A stretch of 45,318 bases of DNA, taken from positions 1 through 45,318 of the forward strand of contig CALLMJ010000085.1 in NCBI GenBank assembly GCA_938006875.1, in the 5' to 3' direction. The notes below the pieces were generated by a model, which was given only the letters and a program-made list of their open reading frames with translations, ran no database searches and was not told the DNA's origin. Position 1 is the stretch's first letter, and every line of letters starts with the position of its first letter. The position numbers and the translations under genes were made by a program. This DNA comes from an uncultured Bacteroidia bacterium (GTDB taxonomy: Bacteria; Bacteroidota; Bacteroidia; J057; CALLMJ01). Positions 418 through 38,781 of this stretch are shown here, piece by piece.

Positions 418-1890
418 CTAAAACTGTAAATAAACAAAGGGTATAGACCCTAACGTTTTAAATTGATAAATTACTATAACCATTATTACAATTACAATAA
501 TTTTTAAACTCCAATGTAAAACTATAAATTGTGATTCAAAAAATTTTTTCCATGAGTTAGGAAGAAAATGTAAAATAATACCAGCTAGCAATATATGAGC
601 TACAATTTTATATTCCTCGTACCATTTTAAGAATAATTCTGCATGAAAATCGTTCAAAATTCTATCAAACATTTTGAAACTACTTTCTAATGAAGGGGAA
701 TTGAAAAAGAAAAATGTAAAAGTAAGGAAGGTATAAGTAAACAAAATACTGAAAATGGTATGAAAATGTGTACCCCAGAAATTTTTTAAAGCGATACGAA
801 ATTTTTGAGTAGCAATTTCATAGCTGATAGCAAGTCCATGTAGAAGCCCCCAAACAATAAAAGTAAAATTGGCTCCATGCCAAATTCCTGATAATAAAAA
901 GGTTACCATCATACTAAAAATTGCTGCACTTTTTCCCCAACTTCTTAATGAAAAATTTAAGGGTGTAAAAACATAATCATTAAACCATTGAAATAAAGTA
1001 ATATGCCAACGTCTCCAAAATTCTGTAATGGATTGAGATTTAAAGGGTTCGTTAAAATTTTGTGGAATTTGAATACCCACTAACAAACTCATACCGATTG
1101 CCATATCGGTATATCCAGAAAAATCATTGTATAAATAAAATCCGTAAGCAAATGCCGCTATTAATGACTCCAAACCTGTATAAAAACCAGGATTTTCAAA
1201 TATCCTTAGTATAAAATTGGAACCTAAAGGGTCTGATAAAATCACTTTTTTGGCTAAACCGCTAATAATTAACCAATAACCTAAGCTAATGATTTTGTCA
1301 TCAATATGAGTTTTATTTTTGATTTGCTCTAAGAAAGGTTCTGCTTTACTTATTGGGCCTGCTAAAATAGTTGGAAAATAACTTAAATACAGTAAATAAT
1401 GAAAATAATTGGTTTCAGGATTTTCAATTATTTCATTGTAAACATCAAAAATATAAGAAAGACTTCTAAAAATCCAAAAAGAAATCCCTAAAGGGGCTAT
1501 GATTTGAGGAATAAAAACATCTTGACCTGTCCAAAGATTCCATGTTTGAAGAGTAAATCCTAAATATTTGAAAACAAATAAGATACTAATATTGATAAAA
1601 ACGCTTGTATAAAGCAAAAGTTTTTTGAGGCTATCCTTTTTTTCTTTATGAATTTGTAAGGCAATGAAATAATCAATCAAAGCATAAAACATCAAAAATA
1701 TAACAAACTCGTTGGATAGTTTATAATAGATATACAAACTAAAAACCAATAATGTGGTATTTCTAAATGTAACTTGATGCTGAGTGATTGACCAAACCAA
1801 ATAAAAAATGACAAAAAAAATGGCAAAAATGCCAGAAGTAAAAGTAGGTAAGTATTCTGATGAATAGGTAAAAAATTTCCAAAAGTCCAT
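418..1890 (-). CDS. MBOAT-family O-acyltransferase (AlgI/PatA-like)
   Basis: A polytopic membrane protein of 490 residues, the usual size for AlgI/DltB-type MBOAT enzymes, which pass acyl (usually acetyl) groups across the inner membrane to an extracytoplasmic polymer. The family signatures are visible: WRRWHIT with His296, and GIWHGANFTFIVWGLLHG with the presumed catalytic His338; NDFSGYTDMAIG precedes them. Hydrophobic segments run throughout. It lies 6 bp downstream of the LysM-SGNH gene and is almost certainly co-transcribed with it. MBOAT plus SGNH is the layout of peptidoglycan (PatA/PatB) and alginate or exopolysaccharide (AlgI/AlgJ) O-acetylation systems. The acceptor polymer is inferred from the partner, not seen in this protein. 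The family is sure; the substrate is not. Confidence 0.9.
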   Translation of the reverse strand: MDFWKFFTYSSEYLPTFTSGIFAIFFVIFYLVWSITQHQVTFRNTTLLVFSLYIYYKLSNEFVIFLMFYALIDYFIALQIHKEKKDSLKKLLLYTSVFINISILFVFKYLGFTLQTWNLWTGQDVFIPQIIAPLGISFWIFRSLSYIFDVYNEIIENPETNYFHYLLYLSYFPTILAGPISKAEPFLEQIKNKTHIDDKIISLGYWLIISGLAKKVILSDPLGSNFILRIFENPGFYTGLESLIAAFAYGFYLYNDFSGYTDMAIGMSLLVGIQIPQNFNEPFKSQSITEFWRRWHITLFQWFNDYVFTPLNFSLRSWGKSAAIFSMMVTFLLSGIWHGANFTFIVWGLLHGLAISYEIATQKFRIALKNFWGTHFHTIFSILFTYTFLTFTFFFFNSPSLESSFKMFDRILNDFHAELFLKWYEEYKIVAHILLAGIILHFLPNSWKKFFESQFIVLHWSLKIIVIVIMVIVIYQFKTLGSIPFVYLQF

Positions 1891-1896
1891 TTTGAG

Positions 1897-3771
1897 TTAC
1901 GGCAAATTAAGGATATCACCGGGCATTAGCTTTTTATCTTTCCCTGGATTGATTTTCAATAGTTTTTCAACAGAAACGTTATGTTTTTTTGCAATGAGCC
2001 ATAAATTATCACCACTTTTTACCGTGTATTTTTTTGAAGTCTGATTTTTAGAGTTTAGAGGTTTGGTAATATTATTTTGAGTGGTTAGGTTAGAAGCTAT
2101 TTGTTTGTTCTGTACTTGTAAGGAAGAATTTTTAGTATGATTAGAAATATGGGTTTGTTGTGTTTTGGGTAAGTGTGATACAATTTTTTGAATAATCTGG
2201 TTTTTGGGGACTAAAGATGAATCTGTATAAATCGTTAAATATTGACCGGCATAAATGGTGTTACCTCTTATGAAATTCCATTTTTGAATATCAGTAACAG
2301 TAACTTCGTATTTATCTGCTATCATGGATAAATATTCTCCTTTGTTTACTCTATGCCAAGCCTTTACTGGTACTTTTTTTACAATTTTAACTTCCTCTTT
2401 TTTATGAGAATGGGTATTTTCTACTAATGCTGTTGGAATTTTTTTGGGTTCTTCTTTATTCAATACCACTAAACTCAAATCGGATTTATCAAAAATTCCG
2501 TTAAGTAAGATTTGATGATAAGTATTAAGATAAGCATTAGCGTAAAGCTCTCCTCTTAATTTATAGCCTGGGAAATTTAGGTGTACTCTATCCCATTGGC
2601 AAAGGTTATTTTTATGCCATTCTAGCATAGAATAACGACCACCAGAAACGTTATAATAATCAAAAAAAACAGATTGGGTATCAAAAGCAACCCTTTTAGC
2701 AATAGCTTGAGCCTTACCAACTTCTGGAATACTTAATCCACCTCTATAAAGGTCATGAGAACATGAAATGATAATAGTAGAATTAGGCGCTGCATTTTTA
2801 AATCGGTTAATGATAGCCCTTAAATTGTATTCATACATGGGTTCATTAATCCCTGCGTAATAATCGTTACCACCTAAATCAATAACCAAAATATCGGGTT
2901 GCATATCTGCAATTTGTTGATCCATGAGGTTTTGTCTTAAAATACTTAAAAATCCAGCACCGTTAATTCCTACACTATGGTATAAAATTCCTTGATTTTC
3001 AGGTGTTTCAAATGATATACCATGGCATTCAAAAAAGGTTTGATTTTTTTCAGATTGGTAAATATAAAAAGTTAGGTTATCACTAGCTTTAGGTAATTCT
3101 ACTTCTACAAAAGGCTTATCAGGATTTAATTTTGTATTTACATAAACAGCAGATTGTTGAACACCACCAGGTAAAATTTTTAAATCGTAGCTATTTTCTG
3201 AATATTTTCTATAAATTTTTAGAATTTTATTGTTAGCGTGTTGAGGATTAGGAGCAAAGCGAATGGTAAAAGTAGCTTTTTTGTCAAAGGTTTTTATGGT
3301 AACTCCTGAAATTCCGATGTCTAATTTGGGTTGAAATTGAACATTTTTAGCACTTTCCCAAAGCCCCGTAAAAGTTGTGGTATAATCGGAACCTGGGTGA
3401 GTTCTTGCTGCGGAATAAGGAAATACCATTCCTCTACCTCCTTCTCCAAAAACTTTTTGTAATCTAGTTCTAATTTCATGAGTAAAAATATCAGCTTGGA
3501 CATGAGAATCTCCAAAATGAATCACTTTAAGTTTACGGGAACCAACATTTTTCATAGATTGAACCATGGGCTCTATAGCTTTATAATCAGACCATTGAAA
3601 AATGTTATAATGATATCTTATGAAAGGATATTTTTTTTCGTAGTAAATTTTTTGTTCAATATATTCAGGACATGAGTAGCATGGTTCAGCATGAGAACAT
3701 CCCGAAGAAATAATAAATAAAACGAAAAATAGCAGGTGGTGAATCGAAGAATTGCCGGCAATTTTTTGCAT
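1897..3771 (-). CDS. Secreted SGNH/GDSL esterase with two C-terminal LysM domains
   Basis: A 624-residue exported protein. The start at 3771 gives MQKIAG followed by a hydrophobic segment ending LFIISSGCSHA, a signal peptide with a possible lipoprotein cysteine; an upstream in-frame ATG at 3879 would overlap the promoter and put 36 residues before the signal. The SGNH blocks are HFGDSH (nucleophile Ser89), DLGGNDYY, and WDRVHLN near residue 416 with the Asp/His pair. Two LysM repeats close the protein: WHRVNKGEYLSMIADKY and YTVKSGDNLWLIAKKH, joined by a Ser/Asn/Gln-rich linker. LysM binds peptidoglycan glycan chains, so the esterase or transferase is probably held on the wall. The 3' end is 6 bp from the MBOAT gene. 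A PatB-like role (acetyl transfer to peptidoglycan) is an inference; a deacetylase or a polysaccharide transferase is also possible. Confidence 0.85.
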   Translation of the reverse strand: MQKIAGNSSIHHLLFFVLFIISSGCSHAEPCYSCPEYIEQKIYYEKKYPFIRYHYNIFQWSDYKAIEPMVQSMKNVGSRKLKVIHFGDSHVQADIFTHEIRTRLQKVFGEGGRGMVFPYSAARTHPGSDYTTTFTGLWESAKNVQFQPKLDIGISGVTIKTFDKKATFTIRFAPNPQHANNKILKIYRKYSENSYDLKILPGGVQQSAVYVNTKLNPDKPFVEVELPKASDNLTFYIYQSEKNQTFFECHGISFETPENQGILYHSVGINGAGFLSILRQNLMDQQIADMQPDILVIDLGGNDYYAGINEPMYEYNLRAIINRFKNAAPNSTIIISCSHDLYRGGLSIPEVGKAQAIAKRVAFDTQSVFFDYYNVSGGRYSMLEWHKNNLCQWDRVHLNFPGYKLRGELYANAYLNTYHQILLNGIFDKSDLSLVVLNKEEPKKIPTALVENTHSHKKEEVKIVKKVPVKAWHRVNKGEYLSMIADKYEVTVTDIQKWNFIRGNTIYAGQYLTIYTDSSLVPKNQIIQKIVSHLPKTQQTHISNHTKNSSLQVQNKQIASNLTTQNNITKPLNSKNQTSKKYTVKSGDNLWLIAKKHNVSVEKLLKINPGKDKKLMPGDILNLP

Positions 3772-3857: not shown

Positions 3858-3865
3858 TAATTTTG
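3858..3865 (+). promoter_or_regulatory. Promoter -7 box of the type B T9SS gene
   Basis: TAATTTTG within TATAATTTTGC ends 6 nt before the ATG at 3872. This decides the start codon: an in-frame TTG at 3863 falls inside the box. Confidence 0.65.
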
Positions 3866-3871
3866 CTACTC

Positions 3872-6064
3872 ATGTTCAAAGCTAGAATTTTACAATCTCT
3901 TTTGTTTTTAGGTTTATTTTTTCAAGGATATTCACAATTTCAAGCCAATTATTGGTATTTTGGAAATTTTAATGGTTTACAATTTACTAACGGTTTTGCT
4001 GAACATGTAACTAATGGCCGTTTAAAAACAGAAGAAGGCTGTGCTACTATTTCTGACTCATTGGGGAATCTATTATTTTATACCAACGGACAAAATCTAT
4101 ATGGAAAAAATCATCAATTAATTAGCAATCAACTTATTGGAAATCCCGATGCCGCTCAATCTTCCATTTTTGTACCCTTTCCCACTCAAGAAGATACCCT
4201 ATATCTTTTTGTTAATGGTGCGTTTGGAAATGGAGGATTACATTATTATTTATTGAGTGCAAGTCAACAAACTATACTTAATGGACCCTATTTATTATAT
4301 CAGCCTACCTGTGAAAAAATAACTGCTGTTCATCAAAACAATCAAAAAGATTTTTGGTTATTAACTCACGAATGGAATTCTGATAAATTTGTATGTTATT
4401 CAATCACGCAACAAGGAATTAGTAATCCTATTATAACATTTATAGGTACAGTTCATACAGGAACGAGTGTAATTGCATCAGGAACAATGAAATTTTCTTT
4501 ACAGGGAAATCAAGTAGCCTGTGCTATTCCTTACTTAAATTTAGTAGAACGTTTTGATTTTCAGAATGGTATATTGTCTAATTATAGAACCAAAAGTATA
4601 AGAAATCCTTATGGAGTGAGTTTTTCACCCGATGGTCAAATATTATATGCAACAGGGTATTATTTTGCACAAGGCGGTGCATTAGTCAATGAAGTTTTTC
4701 AATGGAATCATCAAAACCAATTAATAACTATAGGCTCATGGACTTCCCCATTATTCACACCCGAAATTTGGATAGGAGACATTTCTAACGCAATAGACGG
4801 TAAAATGTATGTAGCAAAAAAAGATGCACAAGCTCTCGCAGTGATTGAAAAACCTAATTTGAATGGTACTGCTTGTAACTTTTTACTGAATGGCTTGCCT
4901 ACTACCAATTACTTGGTTCAATATGGTTTACCAAACTTTGTACAATCTTATTTATTAGTACCCAATCTCAACTTTCAAATTCCGCCATCTGTTTGTGCTA
5001 CAGATACTTTTACGCTTTGTGCAACTTCCAATTTACAAGGAAATTTTGAATGGTATATCAATAACCAAACTTTTATAACATCTAATAACTGTATTTCTTA
5101 TTCCTTTGTTCAACCGGGAGATTATACCATTACATTGACCCAGCAAGGTTATAAAGTTTCCAAAACCATTAAAGTTTACGGAAAACCACAAAATCCATTT
5201 TCTCAAAATATACTTTATGCTTGCAAAGAAGAAATTGTTACATTAGATGCACAAAACCCAGGAGCAAGTTATTTTTGGTCTAATGGATTTTCTAGTCAAT
5301 CTATACAGGTCAATCGTTCTGGGCGATATAACGTCAAAATTTATTATGGTGATGGTCAATGCCCTGAGTTATTTTTTGTTAATTTAGTTTTTATAGATAC
5401 ACCTAAACATAATTTCCCTGATACGTTAGTTTGTGATTTGCCATTGATTACATTTACCAACCCTTTTAACGATGCACAAGCTATATGGAACGGAAATTTT
5501 ATTTCAGATACTTTCACCATAGCTCAAAATGGTATTTATACAGTAAAATTTATTCGTTCGTCAATATGTGAATGGGTGGATACTTTTCAAGTAACTATTT
5601 CACCACCATGGATTAGAATTATGCCTTTTGATACAACGTTTTGTCCAACTAAAGGTTCTATTGAATTAGATGCAGGGAATTCCCAAAATTACCTTTGGAG
5701 TACAAACGAAACCTCAAGAAAAATATTAGTGAAAGAACCCGGGATTTTCTCTGTTTTAAGAACCGATGCCAATGGCTGTTCAACTTTTGAAGAAATTACT
5801 GTTAGAAATGAATGCAATTTGTTGTATATGCCCAACGCATTTACACCTAATCAAGATGGAAAGAATGAAACTTTAAAACCTATAACTGGAGAGCCTATGG
5901 ATTATGAAATGTTTATTTACAATAATACTGGTAAATTAGTATTTCAAGGTATAGAGTGGGGTGGGGAAAGCTTCCCAGAAGGAGTTTATATGGTTCTGGT
6001 GAAAGGTAAGTGGGCGAATGGAAAAACTATTCAAGAAGTTTATAATGTTTTATTAATACGTTAA
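3872..6064 (+). CDS. Secreted type B T9SS (gliding-associated C-terminal domain) protein
   Basis: 730 residues. A signal peptide (MFKARILQSLLFLGLFFQGYSQ) is followed by NYWYFGNFNGLQF and EGCATISDSLGNLLFYTNG, the usual opening of Bacteroidota surface proteins with an N-terminal beta-propeller. The middle (about 370-650) carries Cys-containing PKD/Ig-like modules (GDYTITLTQQG, ATYFWSNG-like strands). The end, LYMPNAFTPNQDGKNE...YEMFIYNNTGKLVFQG...PEGVYMVLVKG, is a textbook CHU_C/type B T9SS sorting domain, so the protein is exported through the outer membrane by T9SS and kept on the surface or released. No catalytic domain is evident; an adhesin or structural role is a guess. It is monocistronic, with its own promoter. 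Confidence 0.88.
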   Translation: MFKARILQSLLFLGLFFQGYSQFQANYWYFGNFNGLQFTNGFAEHVTNGRLKTEEGCATISDSLGNLLFYTNGQNLYGKNHQLISNQLIGNPDAAQSSIFVPFPTQEDTLYLFVNGAFGNGGLHYYLLSASQQTILNGPYLLYQPTCEKITAVHQNNQKDFWLLTHEWNSDKFVCYSITQQGISNPIITFIGTVHTGTSVIASGTMKFSLQGNQVACAIPYLNLVERFDFQNGILSNYRTKSIRNPYGVSFSPDGQILYATGYYFAQGGALVNEVFQWNHQNQLITIGSWTSPLFTPEIWIGDISNAIDGKMYVAKKDAQALAVIEKPNLNGTACNFLLNGLPTTNYLVQYGLPNFVQSYLLVPNLNFQIPPSVCATDTFTLCATSNLQGNFEWYINNQTFITSNNCISYSFVQPGDYTITLTQQGYKVSKTIKVYGKPQNPFSQNILYACKEEIVTLDAQNPGASYFWSNGFSSQSIQVNRSGRYNVKIYYGDGQCPELFFVNLVFIDTPKHNFPDTLVCDLPLITFTNPFNDAQAIWNGNFISDTFTIAQNGIYTVKFIRSSICEWVDTFQVTISPPWIRIMPFDTTFCPTKGSIELDAGNSQNYLWSTNETSRKILVKEPGIFSVLRTDANGCSTFEEITVRNECNLLYMPNAFTPNQDGKNETLKPITGEPMDYEMFIYNNTGKLVFQGIEWGGESFPEGVYMVLVKGKWANGKTIQEVYNVLLIR

Positions 6065-6185: not shown

Positions 6186-6485
6186 ATGCCCTCAAAAAAC
6201 GATTCATTTTCAGAAGAACAAATCCTAACAGCTAGGTTTGCAAAAGCCTTAGCCCATCCAGTTCGTTTGGCTATTTTAAAAATACTTCATTCCAAAGCTT
6301 GTTGTTATCATGGAGATATGGCAGAGGAACTACCTATTGCAAAATCTACCCTTTCCCAGCATCTAAATGAATTAAAAAATGCAGGGCTTATTCAAGGGAA
6401 TATTACCCCGCCTACTACAAAATATTGCATTCATAAAGAAAATTTTCAACTTGCTAAAAAATTGATTAACAACATTTTTGAATAA
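6186..6485 (+). CDS. arsR: ArsR-family metalloregulatory repressor
   Basis: A 99-residue winged-helix protein of the ArsR/SmtB family. LAHPVRLAILKILHSKACCYHGDM leads into AEELPIAKSTLSQHLNELKNAGLIQG, the DNA-reading helix-turn-helix. The Cys39-Cys40 pair at the start of the helix-turn-helix lies where ArsR proteins place arsenite-binding thiols (ELCVCDL in classical ArsR), and a third Cys occurs in KYCIHKEN near the C terminus. It is followed by acr3, a DUF6428 gene and an arsenate reductase on the same strand, so it very probably represses its own operon and releases on arsenite or antimonite. Exact ligand thiols are inferred. Confidence 0.92.
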   Translation: MPSKNDSFSEEQILTARFAKALAHPVRLAILKILHSKACCYHGDMAEELPIAKSTLSQHLNELKNAGLIQGNITPPTTKYCIHKENFQLAKKLINNIFE

Positions 6486-6495
6486 ATTCAAAAAA

Positions 6496-6543
6496 AATAT
6501 TGTTCGTAAAATTCCGAATATATCAAATATTGTTCGTAAAATT
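6496..6543 (+). promoter_or_regulatory. Two 18-bp direct repeats before acr3, putative ArsR sites
   Basis: AATATTGTTCGTAAAATT occurs identically at 6496-6513 and 6526-6543, start-to-start spacing 30 bp, close to three helical turns. The core TTGTTCGTA is shared with the arsR promoter. The first copy continues into CCGAA, giving TTCG...CGAA symmetry. A weak -7-like TAAAATTG abuts the second copy, so acr3 may have its own regulated promoter. Confidence 0.5.
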
Positions 6544-6572
6544 GCAAAAAATTGTAAGTCTTTTTTAGTCGT

Positions 6573-7592
6573 ATGCAACCCAAGTTAAAATTTTTAGATA
6601 GATACCTAACGTTATGGATATTTCTTGCGATGTTTATAGGAGTAGTTTTGGGTTATTTATTTCCAGGTATTAAAACCTTATTTGATTCTCTTTCCGTTGG
6701 TTCAACCAATATTCCACTGGCAATAGGATTGATTTTAATGATGTATCCACCACTTGCCAAAGTAGATTATTCTTTGCTTCCCAAAGCATTTCAAGATAAA
6801 AAATCCATGTTTTTATCCTTATTCCTTAATTGGGTATTAGGTCCTCTATTAATGTTTGGATTAGCAGTATTATTTTTAAAAGACCAACCCGATTATATGG
6901 TAGGCTTAATATTGATTGGTTTGGCACGTTGCATTGCTATGGTAATCGTTTGGAATGATTTAGCGGGGGGAAACCGAGAATATGGAGCATTGTTAATAGC
7001 TTTAAATAGCATTTTTCAAGTAATTTCTTATAGCTTTTATGCTTGGATATTTATTAACATTTTACCCTCCAAATTGGGAATTGGTAATTTTGATATTCAT
7101 GTTCCGATGAGTGAGGTAACTCAAAGTGTTGTAATTTATTTAGGAATTCCGTTTTTAGCAGGATTTTTAAGTAGAAAAATTTTAGTTCAATCCAAAGGCA
7201 TTACTTGGTATAACACAAAGTTTGTACCCGTTATTTCTCCAATTACTTTATATGCTTTATTGTTTACTATTGTTTTGATGTTTAGTTTAAAAGGAGACAA
7301 AATTTTAGAACTACCCTTTGATGTTTTAAAAGTAGCCATACCTTTAATTCTTTATTTTGTGATTATGTTTTTTATGAGTTTTTTTATCAACAAATCTATG
7401 AAAGTAGCTTATGATAAAAATGCTTCTATATCATTCACAGCAACAGGAAATAACTTTGAGTTAGCCATTGCCGTTGCAATTGCTGTTTATGGTATACATT
7501 CCGCTCAAGCTTTTGCTGGTGTTATTGGCCCTTTGGTAGAAGTCCCTGTATTGATTTTGTTAGTAAAAGCCAGCCAAAAATTAAAATATTAA
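6573..7592 (+). CDS. acr3: Arsenite efflux permease ACR3
   Basis: A 339-residue inner-membrane transporter of the ACR3 branch of the BASS superfamily, which extrudes arsenite using the proton-motive force. About ten hydrophobic helices can be drawn. LIGLARCIAMVIVWNDLAGGNREYGALLIALNS contains the invariant Cys120 needed for arsenite transport, and TGNNFELAIAVAIAVYG near residue 290 is the second conserved block of the family. Length is normal. It follows arsR by 87 bp containing two putative operator repeats, and precedes DUF6428 by 12 bp. Together with the reductase downstream it forms a complete reduce-and-export arsenate pathway. Confidence 0.95.
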   Translation: MQPKLKFLDRYLTLWIFLAMFIGVVLGYLFPGIKTLFDSLSVGSTNIPLAIGLILMMYPPLAKVDYSLLPKAFQDKKSMFLSLFLNWVLGPLLMFGLAVLFLKDQPDYMVGLILIGLARCIAMVIVWNDLAGGNREYGALLIALNSIFQVISYSFYAWIFINILPSKLGIGNFDIHVPMSEVTQSVVIYLGIPFLAGFLSRKILVQSKGITWYNTKFVPVISPITLYALLFTIVLMFSLKGDKILELPFDVLKVAIPLILYFVIMFFMSFFINKSMKVAYDKNASISFTATGNNFELAIAVAIAVYGIHSAQAFAGVIGPLVEVPVLILLVKASQKLKY

Positions 7593-7604
7593 TCAAAAAT
7601 TTAT

Positions 7605-8078
7605 ATGACTATTCAAGAGTTTAAAAATCATTTAAAAAATTTAGAGGTTATTCAATTTGCTTTACCTAATGGCAAATTGGTTCCAGAACATTTTCATATT
7701 ACTGAAATGGGAAAAAAAACCAAACATTTTATAGATTGTGGAAATACTATTCGTAAAGAATGTTTCGTTAGTTTTCAATTATGGTACGCTAATGATTATC
7801 AGCATAGATTAACCTCAGAAAAATTATTCAAAATTATTGCTGCCTCTGAACCCCTTTTTGAAAACGAAAATTTAGAATTAGAAGTAGAATACCAAACCGA
7901 TTTAACCATAGGTATTTTTGGTTTAGAATTCAAACAGGGAATTTTTCAATTAACAGAAAAATATACTACTTGTTTAGCTACTGACCATTGTGGTATACCT
8001 AAAGAAAAGCTAAAGGTACCATTAAAAAGTTTGGGAAAAACCAATAGTTGTTGTTCTTCTGGTACAAATTGCTGTTAA
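7605..8078 (+). CDS. DUF6428-family protein with Cys-rich tail
   Basis: 157 residues, no signal peptide and no membrane segment. It matches the small DUF6428 proteins found in Bacteroidota arsenic clusters (MTIQEFKNHLKNLEVIQFALPNG opening; PEHFHITEMG; GNTIRKECFVSFQLW). The C terminus is thiol-rich: CLATDHCG, then CCSSGTNCC as the last nine residues, a plausible soft-metal site. It sits between the arsenite exporter and the arsenate reductase, with 2 bp before the latter's ATG, so an arsenic-handling role (chaperone or buffer for As(III)) is likely but unproven. No enzymatic motif is visible. Confidence 0.8.
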   Translation: MTIQEFKNHLKNLEVIQFALPNGKLVPEHFHITEMGKKTKHFIDCGNTIRKECFVSFQLWYANDYQHRLTSEKLFKIIAASEPLFENENLELEVEYQTDLTIGIFGLEFKQGIFQLTEKYTTCLATDHCGIPKEKLKVPLKSLGKTNSCCSSGTNCC

Positions 8079-8080
8079 TT

Positions 8081-8701
8081 ATGCTTTTAACTATTCAAAA
8101 AATTATTGAAGGTTTTCATCATGAAAACATTTCTGAAGAAAGGAAATCTATTTTAAAGCCATTAGTGGAATACCTTCAAAAAAAAGTTAATTCAACGGAA
8201 AGTGTTCGTTTAAATTTTATTTGTACACATAATTCCCGTCGAAGCCATTTCTCTCAAATCTGGGCACAAACCATGGCTTACTATTTTAAAATTCCGAAAG
8301 TATTTTGTTACTCTGGAGGTACGGAGGCAACCGCTATGTTTCCTAAGGTTGCAGAAACCCTGAAAAATCAAGGATTTGAAGTTCTTAAAATTTCAGAAGC
8401 AGAAAATCCCATTTATGCCATAAAATATACAGAAAATGAACACCCTATCATAGGATTTTCAAAAATATATTCTCATGAATTTAATCCTAAAAGCCAATTT
8501 GCTGCTATAATGACTTGCAGTAACGCTGACGAAGGCTGTCCTTTGGTTTTAGGAGCAGAGGCACGTTTCCCTATAAAATATGATGATCCAAAAATATTTG
8601 ATGGTACGGAATTACAAAATCAAAAATATGCAGAACGTAGTTTAGAAATAGCACAAGAAATGTGGTGGGTATTCCAAAGTGTTAAAATAAATTATGTTTG
8701 A
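8081..8701 (+). CDS. arsC: Arsenate reductase, low-molecular-weight tyrosine phosphatase type
   Basis: 206 residues from the ATG at 8081, just after the DUF6428 stop; an upstream in-frame ATG at 8048 would overlap that gene and adds no conserved sequence. The phosphate/arsenate loop FICTHNSRRSHFSQIW supplies Cys48 and Arg54 (CX5R). TCSNADEGCP carries Cys146 and Cys153, and KYDDP near 167 provides the general-acid Asp, all as in LMW-PTPase-type reductases. It should reduce arsenate to arsenite for export by ACR3. The longer-than-classical length is typical for the Bacteroidota form often labelled protein-tyrosine-phosphatase. Last gene of the ars operon. Confidence 0.9.
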   Translation: MLLTIQKIIEGFHHENISEERKSILKPLVEYLQKKVNSTESVRLNFICTHNSRRSHFSQIWAQTMAYYFKIPKVFCYSGGTEATAMFPKVAETLKNQGFEVLKISEAENPIYAIKYTENEHPIIGFSKIYSHEFNPKSQFAAIMTCSNADEGCPLVLGAEARFPIKYDDPKIFDGTELQNQKYAERSLEIAQEMWWVFQSVKINYV

Positions 8702-25177: not shown

Positions 25178-25185
25178 TAAATTTG
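25178..25185 (+). promoter_or_regulatory. Flippase promoter -7 box
   Basis: TAAATTTG, 14 nt before the ATG at 25200; its last bases overlap an in-frame upstream TTG, arguing for the ATG. Confidence 0.5.
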
Positions 25186-25199
25186 TGATTTCATATTCC

Positions 25200-26603
25200 A
25201 TGAACCCTTTCTTTTTTACTCTCTTCATTTCCATAATTGCTAACTTAATTATCAAACCAGCTTGGGTTTTTACTGAAAATAAAATTCAAGATGAATTAGG
25301 GCATGAAATGTTAGGTCTTTATGCCGCTTTATTTTCTTTCTCCAGTATTTTTTTAGTACTCTCTGATTTAGGAATTAGCCAATGGAATGTAAAAGAATTT
25401 TCAGGAAAAAAAAATATTCTTAATCAACAAATTGGAAAAATTTGGGGTTCAAAAATTTTTTTAAGCTTTTTATTTTTCGTAGTCAGTTTATTAACAGCGA
25501 TTGTTTTAGGCTATTCTTGGTACCATATTCAGTGGCTTTTTTGGATTATCGTTTATCAACTATTCATTTCAGGAATACAACTTCAAAGAGGTCATTTACA
25601 AGCCCTACAATTATTTCGTTTAGATACTCTTCTTGGTAATTTAGATAAAACTTTCTTACTGATTTTTTCCTTATATTTGATTTATACCCATCAACTTCGT
25701 TTTGAATCTTTTATTGACGTTTTACTTTTGTCAGCTTTCTTGCCCTTTCTTTTTGGGTGGTTCATTTTAAAAAATCATTTAGAAATCCCAAAAATAGAAT
25801 GGGATTTTATCTTTTTAAAACAAATTTCCAAAGCCTTTTTACCTTTTGCATTCATGACTATTCTCTTTTCCACTAATGAAAGAATCAATCAAGTTTTAAT
25901 TGAAAAAATTGCAGGAGAAAAAGAATCCGGGTTATTTGCGGGTGCATATCGTTGGAACAATGCCATTGCTATGTATCTTTGGACAATTCTCCCCATATTT
26001 TTTGCTAAATTTGCTAATCATCAAAAAGAACCTAAATTATTACAAAAGTTTTTTCAATTAGGCTGGGTAATTGTAGCAATTCCTATACTTTTTGGTGCTT
26101 TTTGGGTGCTTTTACATGGAGAAATTTTATTCATTCAATTTAGCAAAAGCCAACCTCAAGATGTCCAAAAGATGTATTTTTTACTAAAAATTTTGATTTG
26201 GACAGTAGCTTTGAACGCTTGTTTTAATATTTTTTCTACTTGGTTAACTGCTTCTGGATACGTCCATGAAACTAACAAAGTTTTAGTTTATGCTGTAATT
26301 ACTAATCTCATTTTATCCATGATTTTCATTCCTAATTATGGAAGCACTGGTGGGGCAATTGCTTTATTAATAGCTTTTATTATTCAGTCCTTAGGTTTTT
26401 TGTATTTCTTTCTTAAATACAAAAATTTTTATTTAGATTTTTCTATTCTGGGTAAATCCCTTATAGTTTTGATAGTAGGAATTTCTAATCTTTGGATTTT
26501 TTACCAATTTCGAATGAATTGGTTCATAAGTACTTTAATGAGCATAACTGTAATTGCTGGAGGTTTATTTTACTTTAAATTGGTAGATTGGAAAAAAGAA
26601 TAA
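25200..26603 (+). CDS. Polysaccharide/oligosaccharide flippase (Wzx/MVF-like)
   Basis: 467 residues with about twelve to fourteen membrane helices, the size and topology of the oligosaccharide flippase branch of the MOP superfamily. Supporting features are the N-terminal amphipathic start MNPFFFTLFISIIANLIIKPAWVFTENKIQ, ERINQVLIEKIAGEKESGLFAGAYRWNNA in the seventh to eighth helices, and FIPNYGSTGGAIALLIAF near residue 375. It would turn lipid-linked glycans across the inner membrane. No glycosyltransferases flank it, so the glycan (lipopolysaccharide, capsule or peptidoglycan-like) is not identifiable. Confidence 0.85.
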   Translation: MNPFFFTLFISIIANLIIKPAWVFTENKIQDELGHEMLGLYAALFSFSSIFLVLSDLGISQWNVKEFSGKKNILNQQIGKIWGSKIFLSFLFFVVSLLTAIVLGYSWYHIQWLFWIIVYQLFISGIQLQRGHLQALQLFRLDTLLGNLDKTFLLIFSLYLIYTHQLRFESFIDVLLLSAFLPFLFGWFILKNHLEIPKIEWDFIFLKQISKAFLPFAFMTILFSTNERINQVLIEKIAGEKESGLFAGAYRWNNAIAMYLWTILPIFFAKFANHQKEPKLLQKFFQLGWVIVAIPILFGAFWVLLHGEILFIQFSKSQPQDVQKMYFLLKILIWTVALNACFNIFSTWLTASGYVHETNKVLVYAVITNLILSMIFIPNYGSTGGAIALLIAFIIQSLGFLYFFLKYKNFYLDFSILGKSLIVLIVGISNLWIFYQFRMNWFISTLMSITVIAGGLFYFKLVDWKKE

Positions 26604-36872: not shown

Positions 36873-38234
36873 TTGGAACCTGACCCGTATAGTTACACTT
36901 TACCATTTTTAATTATTACAAACTTTCAAGAGTTTATTTCTGCCTCTTGGCTTAGTTTATTGTGTTTAATAGTTTTGTCTATTCTTTCTGCTATTTTTTC
37001 TGCTTATGAAACATCATTTTTTGCATTGCAAAGAGATGAAATTGAAGAAATGAAACTAAACCCTTCTATTAATCAAAAAATTATATTTAAACATCTCAAT
37101 TATTCTCATGAATTTTTGGCTACCATTCTCATAGGTATTAACTTTGTTAATATTGGTATTGTCTTATTTTCTCATGATTTATTAAAAAATTTAGGGGAGT
37201 GGTTTCAATTGAGTAGCTGGGTTCTTTCTATTTTAGATATTTTTCTTATTACTTCCTTTTTATTAATTTTTGCTGAAATTACCCCCAAAGTTTTTGCTTC
37301 TGCTAATAAAAAGTTCTTTTTAAAAAATTTTACGATTTTTATGGAAGGATTTTACTATTTGTTTTATCCTTTCAGTTCTTTATTAAGTTCTATTTCTTAC
37401 CTTATAAAAGACAAAAAAACAGAGCAACAAAATATTGAAGCCTCAATGGAGGAACTTAAACACGCTATTGAACTCACTTCTGATGATTTTGCCCCGAAAG
37501 AAGAAAAAGAAATTCTAAAAGGACTTGTCAATTTTAGGAACATACTAGTAAAAGCTGTAATGACTGCAAGAGTGGATATGAAATGTATCAATAAAAGTGA
37601 TACTCCTGAAATAGTTCTACAAAAAATTAATGAATATGGATATTCCAGATTACCAGTTTTTGAGGTTGACTCTGACCACATCGTCGGAATTTTATATGTA
37701 AAAGATGTTTTACCTTTGATAAAATCTGAAAATCTATCTGAATGGAAATCTAAAATACGCCCTGCATTTTTTGTGCCCGAAAATATGAAAATTAATAAAT
37801 TACTCACCGAATTTCAAAAAAGAAGGCTTCATATTGCTATTGTTGTAGATGAATTTGGTGGAACATCGGGTTTGGTATCCTTAGAAGATATTTTAGAAGA
37901 AATTTTTGGTGAGATTGCTGATGAACATGATGAAGAAGAAATTCTATTTAAACCTATTGATAAACAGACATTTTGGTTAGATGGAAAATTAACTATTATT
38001 GATTTATGCAAAAATTTAGAATTAGAAGATAATCTTTTTGAAGAAGTTCAGGGTGATTCAGAAACTGTAAGTGGTTTATTATCAGAAGTTTTAGGTAGAT
38101 TTCCACAAAAAAATGATTCTATAACTTTTAAAAATTATGAATTTGTGGTAGAAAATGCTTCTGAATTTGTGGTAGAAAGTGTAATTTTGAAAGTTCATGA
38201 AATTCATAACAATGAAATTCCTAATCATTCCTAG
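36873..38234 (+). CDS. gldE: Gliding motility-associated GldE (CNNM/CBS/CorC protein)
   Basis: 453 residues from a TTG codon. The N-terminal third is a CNNM-type membrane domain (SAIFSAYETSFFALQRDEIEEM...LIFAEITPKVFASANKKFF). A CBS pair follows (MTARVDMKCINKSDTPEIVLQKINEYGYSRLPVFEVDSDHIVGILYVKDVLPL and RRLHIAIVVDEFGGTSGLVSLEDILEEIFGEI), then a CorC/HlyC domain. This alone would be called a hemolysin C-like transporter; the gldD directly downstream, overlapping it, identifies it as GldE, which supports GldD in T9SS-linked gliding. Confidence 0.9.
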   Translation: MEPDPYSYTLPFLIITNFQEFISASWLSLLCLIVLSILSAIFSAYETSFFALQRDEIEEMKLNPSINQKIIFKHLNYSHEFLATILIGINFVNIGIVLFSHDLLKNLGEWFQLSSWVLSILDIFLITSFLLIFAEITPKVFASANKKFFLKNFTIFMEGFYYLFYPFSSLLSSISYLIKDKKTEQQNIEASMEELKHAIELTSDDFAPKEEKEILKGLVNFRNILVKAVMTARVDMKCINKSDTPEIVLQKINEYGYSRLPVFEVDSDHIVGILYVKDVLPLIKSENLSEWKSKIRPAFFVPENMKINKLLTEFQKRRLHIAIVVDEFGGTSGLVSLEDILEEIFGEIADEHDEEEILFKPIDKQTFWLDGKLTIIDLCKNLELEDNLFEEVQGDSETVSGLLSEVLGRFPQKNDSITFKNYEFVVENASEFVVESVILKVHEIHNNEIPNHS

Positions 38235-38781
38235 TATTTTTTTGTGCATATTGATATTTTTATCATCTTGTGATGAAATTCCTAACCCTAAGCTTCCTGG
38301 TTACCCTAGAATTTTGTTTCCTGAGCATGAATACCAAACTTTTAGTAGCACTCAATGCCCTTTTACATTTGAATATCCTAAAATAGGAAACATAGGGGAT
38401 AAAAGAATTGATTCCTGTTGGGTGGATATTGATATTCCACAATATCAATGTAAGTTCCATCTTACCTACAAACCTTTAAATCAAAAAGTTACTTATTCAA
38501 ATGCCTATGAAGATTATAGAAAATTGATTTACAAACATTCTCAAAAAGCATCAGAAATTGTAGAAACTCCCATTTACTCTAAAAATGGTATTGGTACCTT
38601 CTTTGAAATATACGGAGAAGTTCCTACATCTGCACAATTTTTCTTTTCCGATTCTACCCAACATGCTGTCATGTGTTCCTTTTATTTTGAAACTGCTTTA
38701 AAAAATGATTCCTTAAAACCCGTTATTGACTATTTCAAAAAAGATGTAAAGCATTTAATTCAGTCTATTCGTTGGAAATGA
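38212..38781 (+). CDS. gldD: Gliding motility lipoprotein GldD
   Basis: 189 residues with a lipoprotein signal ending FLSSC (Cys20). NPKLPGYPRILFPEHEYQTF is the characteristic GldD opening; TFEYPKIGNI and WVDIDIPQYQCKFHLTYKPL follow. GldD is needed for T9SS and gliding in the Bacteroidota that have it, but its exact job is not known. The start at 38212 gives the cleanest signal; an in-frame ATG at 38197 adds MKFIT. Either way it begins inside gldE, so the two are coupled. Confidence 0.92.
   Translation: MKFLIIPSIFLCILIFLSSCDEIPNPKLPGYPRILFPEHEYQTFSSTQCPFTFEYPKIGNIGDKRIDSCWVDIDIPQYQCKFHLTYKPLNQKVTYSNAYEDYRKLIYKHSQKASEIVETPIYSKNGIGTFFEIYGEVPTSAQFFFSDSTQHAVMCSFYFETALKNDSLKPVIDYFKKDVKHLIQSIRWK

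Follow-up and report, generated by a model that had tools for sequence, protein, structure and literature searches.

A LysM-bearing, Ape1-type SGNH protein beside a PatA-like MBOAT as a probable part of a wall O-acetylation system in Bacteroidota

Described O-acetylation systems and the locus under study

O-acetylation of the cell wall governs lytic transglycosylases and sensitivity to lysozyme. In the gene cluster of Campylobacter, one transferase is reported to be paired with one esterase; deletion of patA or patB lowers O-acetylation, and deletion of ape1 raises it, from 12.5% to 35.6% (PMC5077204, available text). From gene order, we infer that PatB is the present name of the transferase formerly called Ape2 in Neisseria and Campylobacter. 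In Bacteroides and Porphyromonas, clusters of the order ape1b-ape1c-pat have been described, and the available text of the same paper gives peptidoglycan O-acetylation levels of 69% for B. fragilis and 27% for B. thetaiotaomicron (Weadge 2005, PMC1199599). Such Bacteroides clusters hold two Ape1-family genes, one pat gene and no Ape2, and which protein transfers the acetyl group is the question addressed here. A further question, namely whether nascent or mature wall is the target of acetylation, is left open by Anderson et al. (PMC12148441, available text). The present analysis concerns an SGNH-LysM gene and an adjoining MBOAT gene on a stretch of 45,318 nucleotides from an uncultured Bacteroidia bacterium (contig CALLMJ010000085.1 of assembly GCA_938006875.1). 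This whole stretch, termed the window, is contig C85 of a 2.87-Mb genome.

The SGNH-LysM protein is called A, and a second SGNH protein, encoded on contig C53 of the same genome, is called C. A is best explained as a LysM-tethered de-O-acetylase of the Ape1 type and C as the likely transferase, both serving a wall O-acetylation system together with the PatA-like MBOAT; we give this reading a probability of roughly two in three. That the pathway itself is wall O-acetylation is likely.

The two genes lie on the minus strand, 6 bases apart (1891-1896). Gene A (P0001, 624 aa) occupies 1897-3771 with an ATG at 3771, and a TTG start further upstream would lengthen the frame to 3879. The gene of the MBOAT, an acyltransferase of the PatA/AlgI/DltB type (P0002, 490 aa), occupies 418-1890 with an ATG at 1890. 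An initial annotation had described an SGNH protein with two LysM domains 6 bp from an MBOAT gene, and coordinates and Pfam agree with it: A gives two LysM stretches (83.9 bits, cut-off 20.9) and a Lipase_GDSL_2 match (48.8 bits, cut-off 32.9), and P0002 an MBOAT match (94.0 bits, cut-off 27). Its reading of the pair as the two-part layout of O-acetylation is likewise supported as an MBOAT/SGNH set for cell-envelope acetylation.

Comparisons were made with 60 related genomes, in which P0001 matches were taken at 1e-15 and matches to a profile of C at 1e-25. Figures for named loci refer to the best 80 of 575 confirmed candidate loci. The genomes share ancestry, so that counts among them are not independent. 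G-numbers denote genomes, L-numbers loci, and C followed by a number a contig of a genome.

Protein A, its MBOAT neighbour and protein C

By sequence, the closest solved relatives of the catalytic part of A are 4k3u, which a profile of A matches at 5e-46, and then 8gkd and 8gld. These are titled peptidoglycan O-acetylesterase and Ape1 in the structure library, and 4K7J and 8GKD are referred to as O-acetylesterases in a 2025 paper in Viruses. An AlphaFold2 model of A (predicted local distance difference test score, pLDDT, 85.7) was compared with solved structures using VIA-align. Against 4k3u, the Ape1 of Neisseria, it gave Z 38.9 and a root-mean-square deviation of 2.5 over 340/350 residues; against Campylobacter Ape1 (8gld/8gkd) Z was 34.5, and the best entry other than Ape1 reached 16.7. 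The modelled match spans aa 56-421 (2509-3606, minus strand), and the SGNH domain and the carbohydrate-binding insert are both predicted to be of the Ape1 kind. PatB was absent among the 50 structural matches listed for the model, which excludes nothing, and was not named among the PDB profile-search matches listed (the best 60 of 69 rows, and another list of 13 rows).

The catalytic residues of A, all encoded on the minus strand, are those of Ape1. Block I, GDSH with the nucleophile Ser89 (3502-3513), is aligned to Neisseria Ape1 and invariant in sequence sets A1 and A3. Block II, GINGA (2956-2970), is conserved in at least 90% of set A3 and keeps the oxyanion residue Gly271, which aligned with a glycine of 4k3u that we take to be the block II glycine of that protein. 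Block III, GGND with Asn302 (2863-2874), is invariant in set A3, as are Asp394 and His397 of block V, DRVH (2581-2592). The block II position is reported to be Ser or Asn in PatB (PMC12148441), and in this respect A, with Gly271, differs from PatB.

The N terminus of A (aa 1-25; 3697-3771, minus strand) is a hydrophobic signal ending in IISSGC, with a lipoprotein-like Cys25 in what appears from its sequence to be a weak lipobox; a Gly-Cys near this position recurs in the relatives L012 and L014. PatB is described as having a membrane helix followed by a long, presumably unstructured linker (PMC12148441, available text). In A, a helix predicted at residues 8-23 ends 66 residues before Ser89, and the PatB-like helix with a linker of about 110 residues is missing. 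At the other end of the protein lie the two LysM domains recognised by Pfam, at about aa 468-517 (2221-2370) and about aa 580-624 (1900-2034; best stretch 582-624), both on the minus strand. The window's genome also encodes a second Ape1-type A protein with one LysM, on contig C117 (L164:7070-8584), and no MBOAT was found on that contig.

The MBOAT partner has the features of PatA that can be read from its sequence: the MBOAT domain, a putative catalytic His338 in GIWHG (877-879, minus strand) and the C-terminal motif FVYLQF (421-438, minus strand), a candidate acyl shuttle with Tyr487. The tyrosine of this FXYXXF motif is reported to be auto-acetylated in Campylobacter PatA (PMC12148441). Of the named-locus MBOATs, 58 are complete at the 3' end; WHG is present in all of these, a strict F.Y..F stands at the extreme C terminus of 51/58, and 58/58 have the tyrosine when the motif is relaxed. 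The solved relatives of P0002 by sequence are DltB, and by the NCBIfam DltB cut-off P0002 is not DltB itself (197.7 bits against 375). The other two MBOATs of the window's genome had no adjoining SGNH gene in the stretches read. MBOAT open frames of 588-685 aa, compared with a usual size near 500 aa, were seen in L115, L120, L122, L125, L128 and L141.

Protein C falls in a clade separate from that of A, and its layout differs. In a simple Kyte-Doolittle script run on named-locus proteins, the median distance from the hydrophobic stretch to the catalytic Ser was 108 residues in 65 C proteins and 58 in 77 A proteins, and the mean hydropathy of the strongest stretch exceeded 1.6 in 65/65 C and 62/77 A proteins. 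The C of L077 was modelled, and the model predicts a helix at 41-60, a low-confidence region at 83-129 and the SGNH domain thereafter. This is the layout described for PatB, and as modelled C would fit the transferase slot better than A. PatB was also tried as the nearest structural match of C and rejected, as 8tlb reached Z 15.6 and Ape1 37.1, with no special kinship to PatB.

Gene linkage and LysM architecture among relatives

P0001 matches were found in 38/60 related genomes. By hand count, an MBOAT lies on the same strand and no more than 700 bp downstream of A in 31 of these 38, fused to A in one; six (G002, G008, G020, G049, G057, G059) have no such MBOAT, and in G005 the locus is cut by the contig end. 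In the named loci, the count is 59/80, and of the other 21, L079 ends at a contig end. The pairing of A with MBOAT is not due to chance. The initial annotation had held that homologues consistently unlinked to MBOAT genes would speak against its proposal, and this is not what the counts show.

The commonest gene order is C-A-MBOAT, with C directly upstream of A in many relatives. Within the 80 named loci, A stands with both MBOAT and C in 57 (15 with LysM on A and 42 without), with C and no MBOAT in 11, with MBOAT and no C in 2, and with neither in 10. In the window's genus, C is detached from the cluster and was found on contig C53 (L006) in the window's genome and on C22 in G001.

Detached or not, C persists with A. 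The C profile matched 37/60 relatives; the match in G057 was its A protein, found weakly, and was left uncounted, which leaves 36 genomes with C. In the initial tally, 35 relatives had A and C, three A only, one C only and 21 neither (Fisher p 5e-12 on these counts, before the following correction). The single C-only genome, G052, was found to carry a divergent A between C and MBOAT, and the corrected tally is 39 A-bearing relatives, 36 with C. Ten further A-bearing genomes were picked because C was missing beside A. Twelve named loci lack C in that position, and ten of them supplied these genomes; the rows of the other two, L086 and L091, are identical in the A tree to those of L018 and L019 (G002 and G059). 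C was found in seven of the ten (E below 1e-80). Overall, 43/49 A-bearing genomes have C.

The six A-bearing genomes without C are G005, G021, G057, G060, G061 and G063. In five of them, a DUF459-like or DHHW gene adjoins an MBOAT, and three of these have A in the same cluster. G005 (L183) and G063 (L168) carry a DUF459-like SGNH gene directly upstream of an MBOAT, apart from the A locus seen; G060 has two clusters (L090 and L171), each with A, a DUF459-like gene and MBOAT; G057 and G061 have the order MBOAT-DHHW-A. As A thus accompanies three possible types of transferase, C is read as filling the transferase slot, and A as carrying out de-O-acetylation.

The DUF459-like partner scores below the Pfam DUF459 cut-off (21.5 against 27.2). 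It was considered as a possible PatB and set aside: a conserved SS near block II and DG(A/V)H are suggestive, but PDB sequence searches listed no PatB for it. A DUF459-like SGNH protein is also encoded in the window's genome (L162:4119-4949, contig C1), with no MBOAT on the contig, and its homologues in G002 and G005 adjoin MBOATs. In G060, a 2.5-Mb genome, five Ape1-type matches were seen, one of them within an open frame of 839 aa (locus L090).

LysM occurs on A in two architectures. In a quick tree of 82 A rows, a clade of 35 (Shimodaira-Hasegawa-like approximate likelihood ratio test, SH-aLRT, 97) has a C-terminal LysM in all members except L079, which is cut by the contig end. This tree left out L043-L072 (mostly repeat views of included genomes), odd-numbered loci from L097 on, the duplicates L001, L041 and L042, and the fragment L033. 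L032 of G036, a further case of a C-terminal LysM, was unplaced (branch length 2.08), and its position is uncertain. In the second architecture, a single LysM sits inside the insert; it was found in nine genomes, namely G016 (L040), G009, G012, G014, G015, G017, G021, G058 and G036, the last with a weaker match (22 bits). The C-terminal pair and the internal insert together suggest at least two gains of LysM. Parsimony gave four changes of LysM state on the A tree, one of them the cut L079, although such counts cannot separate gain from loss. MBOATs adjoining a LysM-bearing A form a clade of their own (99) in a 35-row tree of part of the MBOATs, and the MBOAT of L092, which is paired with a DHHW protein, falls outside it. 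Among the papers listed in literature searches, none describes a LysM-bearing Ape1.

A lytic transglycosylase with LysM is a recurrent neighbour of the cluster. In the flank test, which used the 65/80 named loci whose upstream sequence exceeds 3.5 kb, its gene lies upstream of C in 22/65. The identity as SLT plus LysM was established by Pfam on L099 and L118; L115, L120 and L128 have one LysM and low SLT-profile scores, and Pfam SLT is under the cut-off in L115 and L120. The upstream gene was found in 0/16 loci with LysM on A, compared with 22/49 without; with SLT genes counted at any position of the locus, the figures are 1/16 and 22/49 (Fisher p 0.006). L083 has, directly 3' of A, an SLT gene that lacks LysM. 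Mutual exclusion of the two was considered and is not proposed: the A proteins with LysM that entered the comparison belong to one clade, the pattern may be a single historical event, and no transfer of the domain is claimed. Neisseria Ape1 is reported to function optimally only with the lytic transglycosylase LtgA (PMC7083599, available text). This dependence, together with the transglycosylase in the cluster, ties the system to peptidoglycan. The wall itself is thus likely to be the acetylated polymer, as the initial annotation had suggested; the modelled Ape1 fold, LysM and the upstream transglycosylase all point to it.

Weighing the explanations

Several observations weigh against A as esterase and C as transferase. 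The direct neighbour of MBOAT is A, and in 10/60 relatives (G000, G001, G007, G009, G012, G014-G018) it is C and not A that left, being on another contig or more than 600 kb away, with A and MBOAT still together; the counterpoint is that 11/80 named loci keep C and A together without an adjoining MBOAT. A single open frame holds A and MBOAT in G031 (L038:1-2772), a lone fusion that may be natural or an assembly error. G021, a genome 87% complete, has A and MBOAT, and no C was found in it. The model of C is also predicted to have the Ape1 fold (Z 37.1 to 4k3u, with PatB 8tlb at 15.6), and C conserves the glycine at block II; as C shares both with A, neither feature separates the roles of the two proteins, and neither marks C as a transferase. 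The hydrophobic wall of PatB is reported to include Ile or Val before the catalytic His (PMC12148441), and A has Val396 at this place in DRVH. Neisseria Ape1 also has a V there, so that the residue does not discriminate Ape1 from PatB. Between A and C the position differs: 76/78 A proteins have V, I or L and 37/51 C proteins T, as read by a script that left uncounted those C proteins its pattern missed. On this sequence position A resembles PatB more than C does.

These points are the strength of an explanation close to the initial annotation, in which the LysM-SGNH protein is a wall-tethered acetyltransferase in the role of PatB, fed by the MBOAT tyrosine, with LysM directing modification to the mature wall. 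A adjoins MBOAT in most genomes and loci, remains there in relatives that have C elsewhere, forms one frame with MBOAT in G031 and has the PatB-like hydrophobic residue before its catalytic His; the choice between nascent and mature wall, left open by Anderson et al. in the text available, would accommodate it. We nevertheless consider it unlikely, as A is modelled with the Ape1 fold and its insert, keeps the block II glycine and is without the PatB-like membrane helix and long linker. Moreover, C is kept in 43/49 A-bearing genomes, and DHHW or DUF459-like proteins adjoin MBOAT in clusters where A is also present. The proposal of the initial annotation that A is a fused form of PatB is therefore probably wrong; C, which this genome keeps, fits that place better.

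A and C could instead both be transferases, or both esterases, acting at different sites or times, with the sacculus as the target of A, for instance, and nascent strands at the membrane as that of C. The fold is the same in both, neither lacks a catalytic residue, and most genomes with one of the two proteins also have the other. This explanation is improbable, however, given the Campylobacter cluster of one transferase and one esterase (PMC5077204, available text) and the other SGNH families that stand beside MBOAT in 5/6 genomes without C, which suggests different jobs for A and C. Least credible is an exported or surface polysaccharide as the acetylated polymer, with LysM only anchoring the enzyme. 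A Polysacc_synt-family protein is encoded 21 kb away (25185-26603), in a family whose members are often flippases, and some A proteins adjoin MBOAT-DHHW pairs. MBOAT/SGNH sets are also reported to serve alginate and cellulose (PMC12148441). Against this stand the modelled Ape1 fold, LysM and the lytic transglycosylase in the cluster; Pfam scans of 31/40 window open reading frames of at least 120 aa showed no glycosyltransferase or polymerase, and O-acetylated wall has been measured in Bacteroides with such clusters (PMC1199599, available text).

With A as the de-O-acetylase and C as the transferase, the window pair would be two components of a Bacteroidota system of peptidoglycan O-acetylation and de-O-acetylation (OAP). 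The MBOAT would move acetyl from acetyl-CoA to its own C-terminal Tyr487 on the outer side of the membrane, and the membrane-anchored C would most likely hand it to N-acetylmuramic acid of the wall. The SGNH domain of A would strip the O-acetyl group, with the carbohydrate-binding insert and two LysM domains presumably gripping glycan strands, and its action would open sites for lytic transglycosylases, which require a free C-6 hydroxyl. A broader history can be put forward tentatively, at slightly less than even odds: Bacteroidota acetylate the wall without PatB, an Ape1-fold C having become the transferase with a PatB-like helix and linker, and its Ape1-fold sister A having stayed the esterase and gained, in two separate lineages, LysM domains that tether it to the sacculus and stand in for the LysM transglycosylase of other clusters.

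The locus and its relatives offer a testable division of labour, in which C transfers and A removes. If A is an esterase, a mutant without the SGNH-LysM gene should have a more O-acetylated wall, the reverse of the loss of O-acetyl groups that the initial annotation had predicted. LysM, a wall-binding domain, occurs in two architectures on this putative esterase and could give access, from the removal side, to the question of nascent or mature wall.

Other features of the window were recorded. Its first 233 positions hold direct repeats at the contig end, with a 98-nt unit in two copies (94% alike) and a 29-nt portion of that unit in three. The divergent neighbour of the SGNH gene (3863-6064) encodes a protein with a CHU_C type IX secretion signal. 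An ArsR-type regulator (6186-6485), an SBF-family permease (6573-7592), a DUF6428 protein (7605-8078) and a small gene without a Pfam match fall within 6186-8701, which may be an arsenic-resistance cluster, the permease perhaps being an arsenite exporter. A gliding-motility lipoprotein of the GldD family is encoded at 38197-38781.

Comparison with described systems

The ape1b-ape1c-pat clusters of Bacteroides and Porphyromonas, with two Ape1-family genes upstream of pat and no Ape2, resemble the order C-A-MBOAT. The window's genus departs from this: of its two SGNH genes, one is no longer in the cluster and the remaining one has LysM, a term with 0 occurrences in PMC1199599. There, Ape1c is described as missing a stretch of about 100 residues that follows motif I, while A and C both have the insert. 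This mismatch makes it insecure to equate C and A with Ape1b and Ape1c by gene order, a comparison of order and description and not of sequences.

The window MBOAT is the same as PatA in its MBOAT domain, catalytic His and C-terminal FXYXXF acetyl-shuttle motif, a likeness judged by domain and motif and not by PatA sequences, and differs in its set of partners. PatB, like A, belongs to the SGNH superfamily and adjoins an MBOAT; unlike A, it carries Ser or Asn in block II and relies for tethering on a membrane helix and a long linker, with no domain that binds the wall. The MltD-type lytic transglycosylase (SLT plus LysM) has a C-terminal LysM as A does and, in relatives whose A lacks LysM, is encoded within the cluster; its catalytic domain is SLT where that of A is SGNH. 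Closest to A is Ape1 of Neisseria and Campylobacter (4k3u, 8gkd, 8gld), with which it appears from the model to share the whole fold, the insert between blocks I and II and the catalytic blocks, and whose gene adjoins a PatA-type MBOAT, as that of A does. Compared with Ape1, to which its identity is about 20%, A has no recognised PatB beside it and adds two C-terminal LysM domains.

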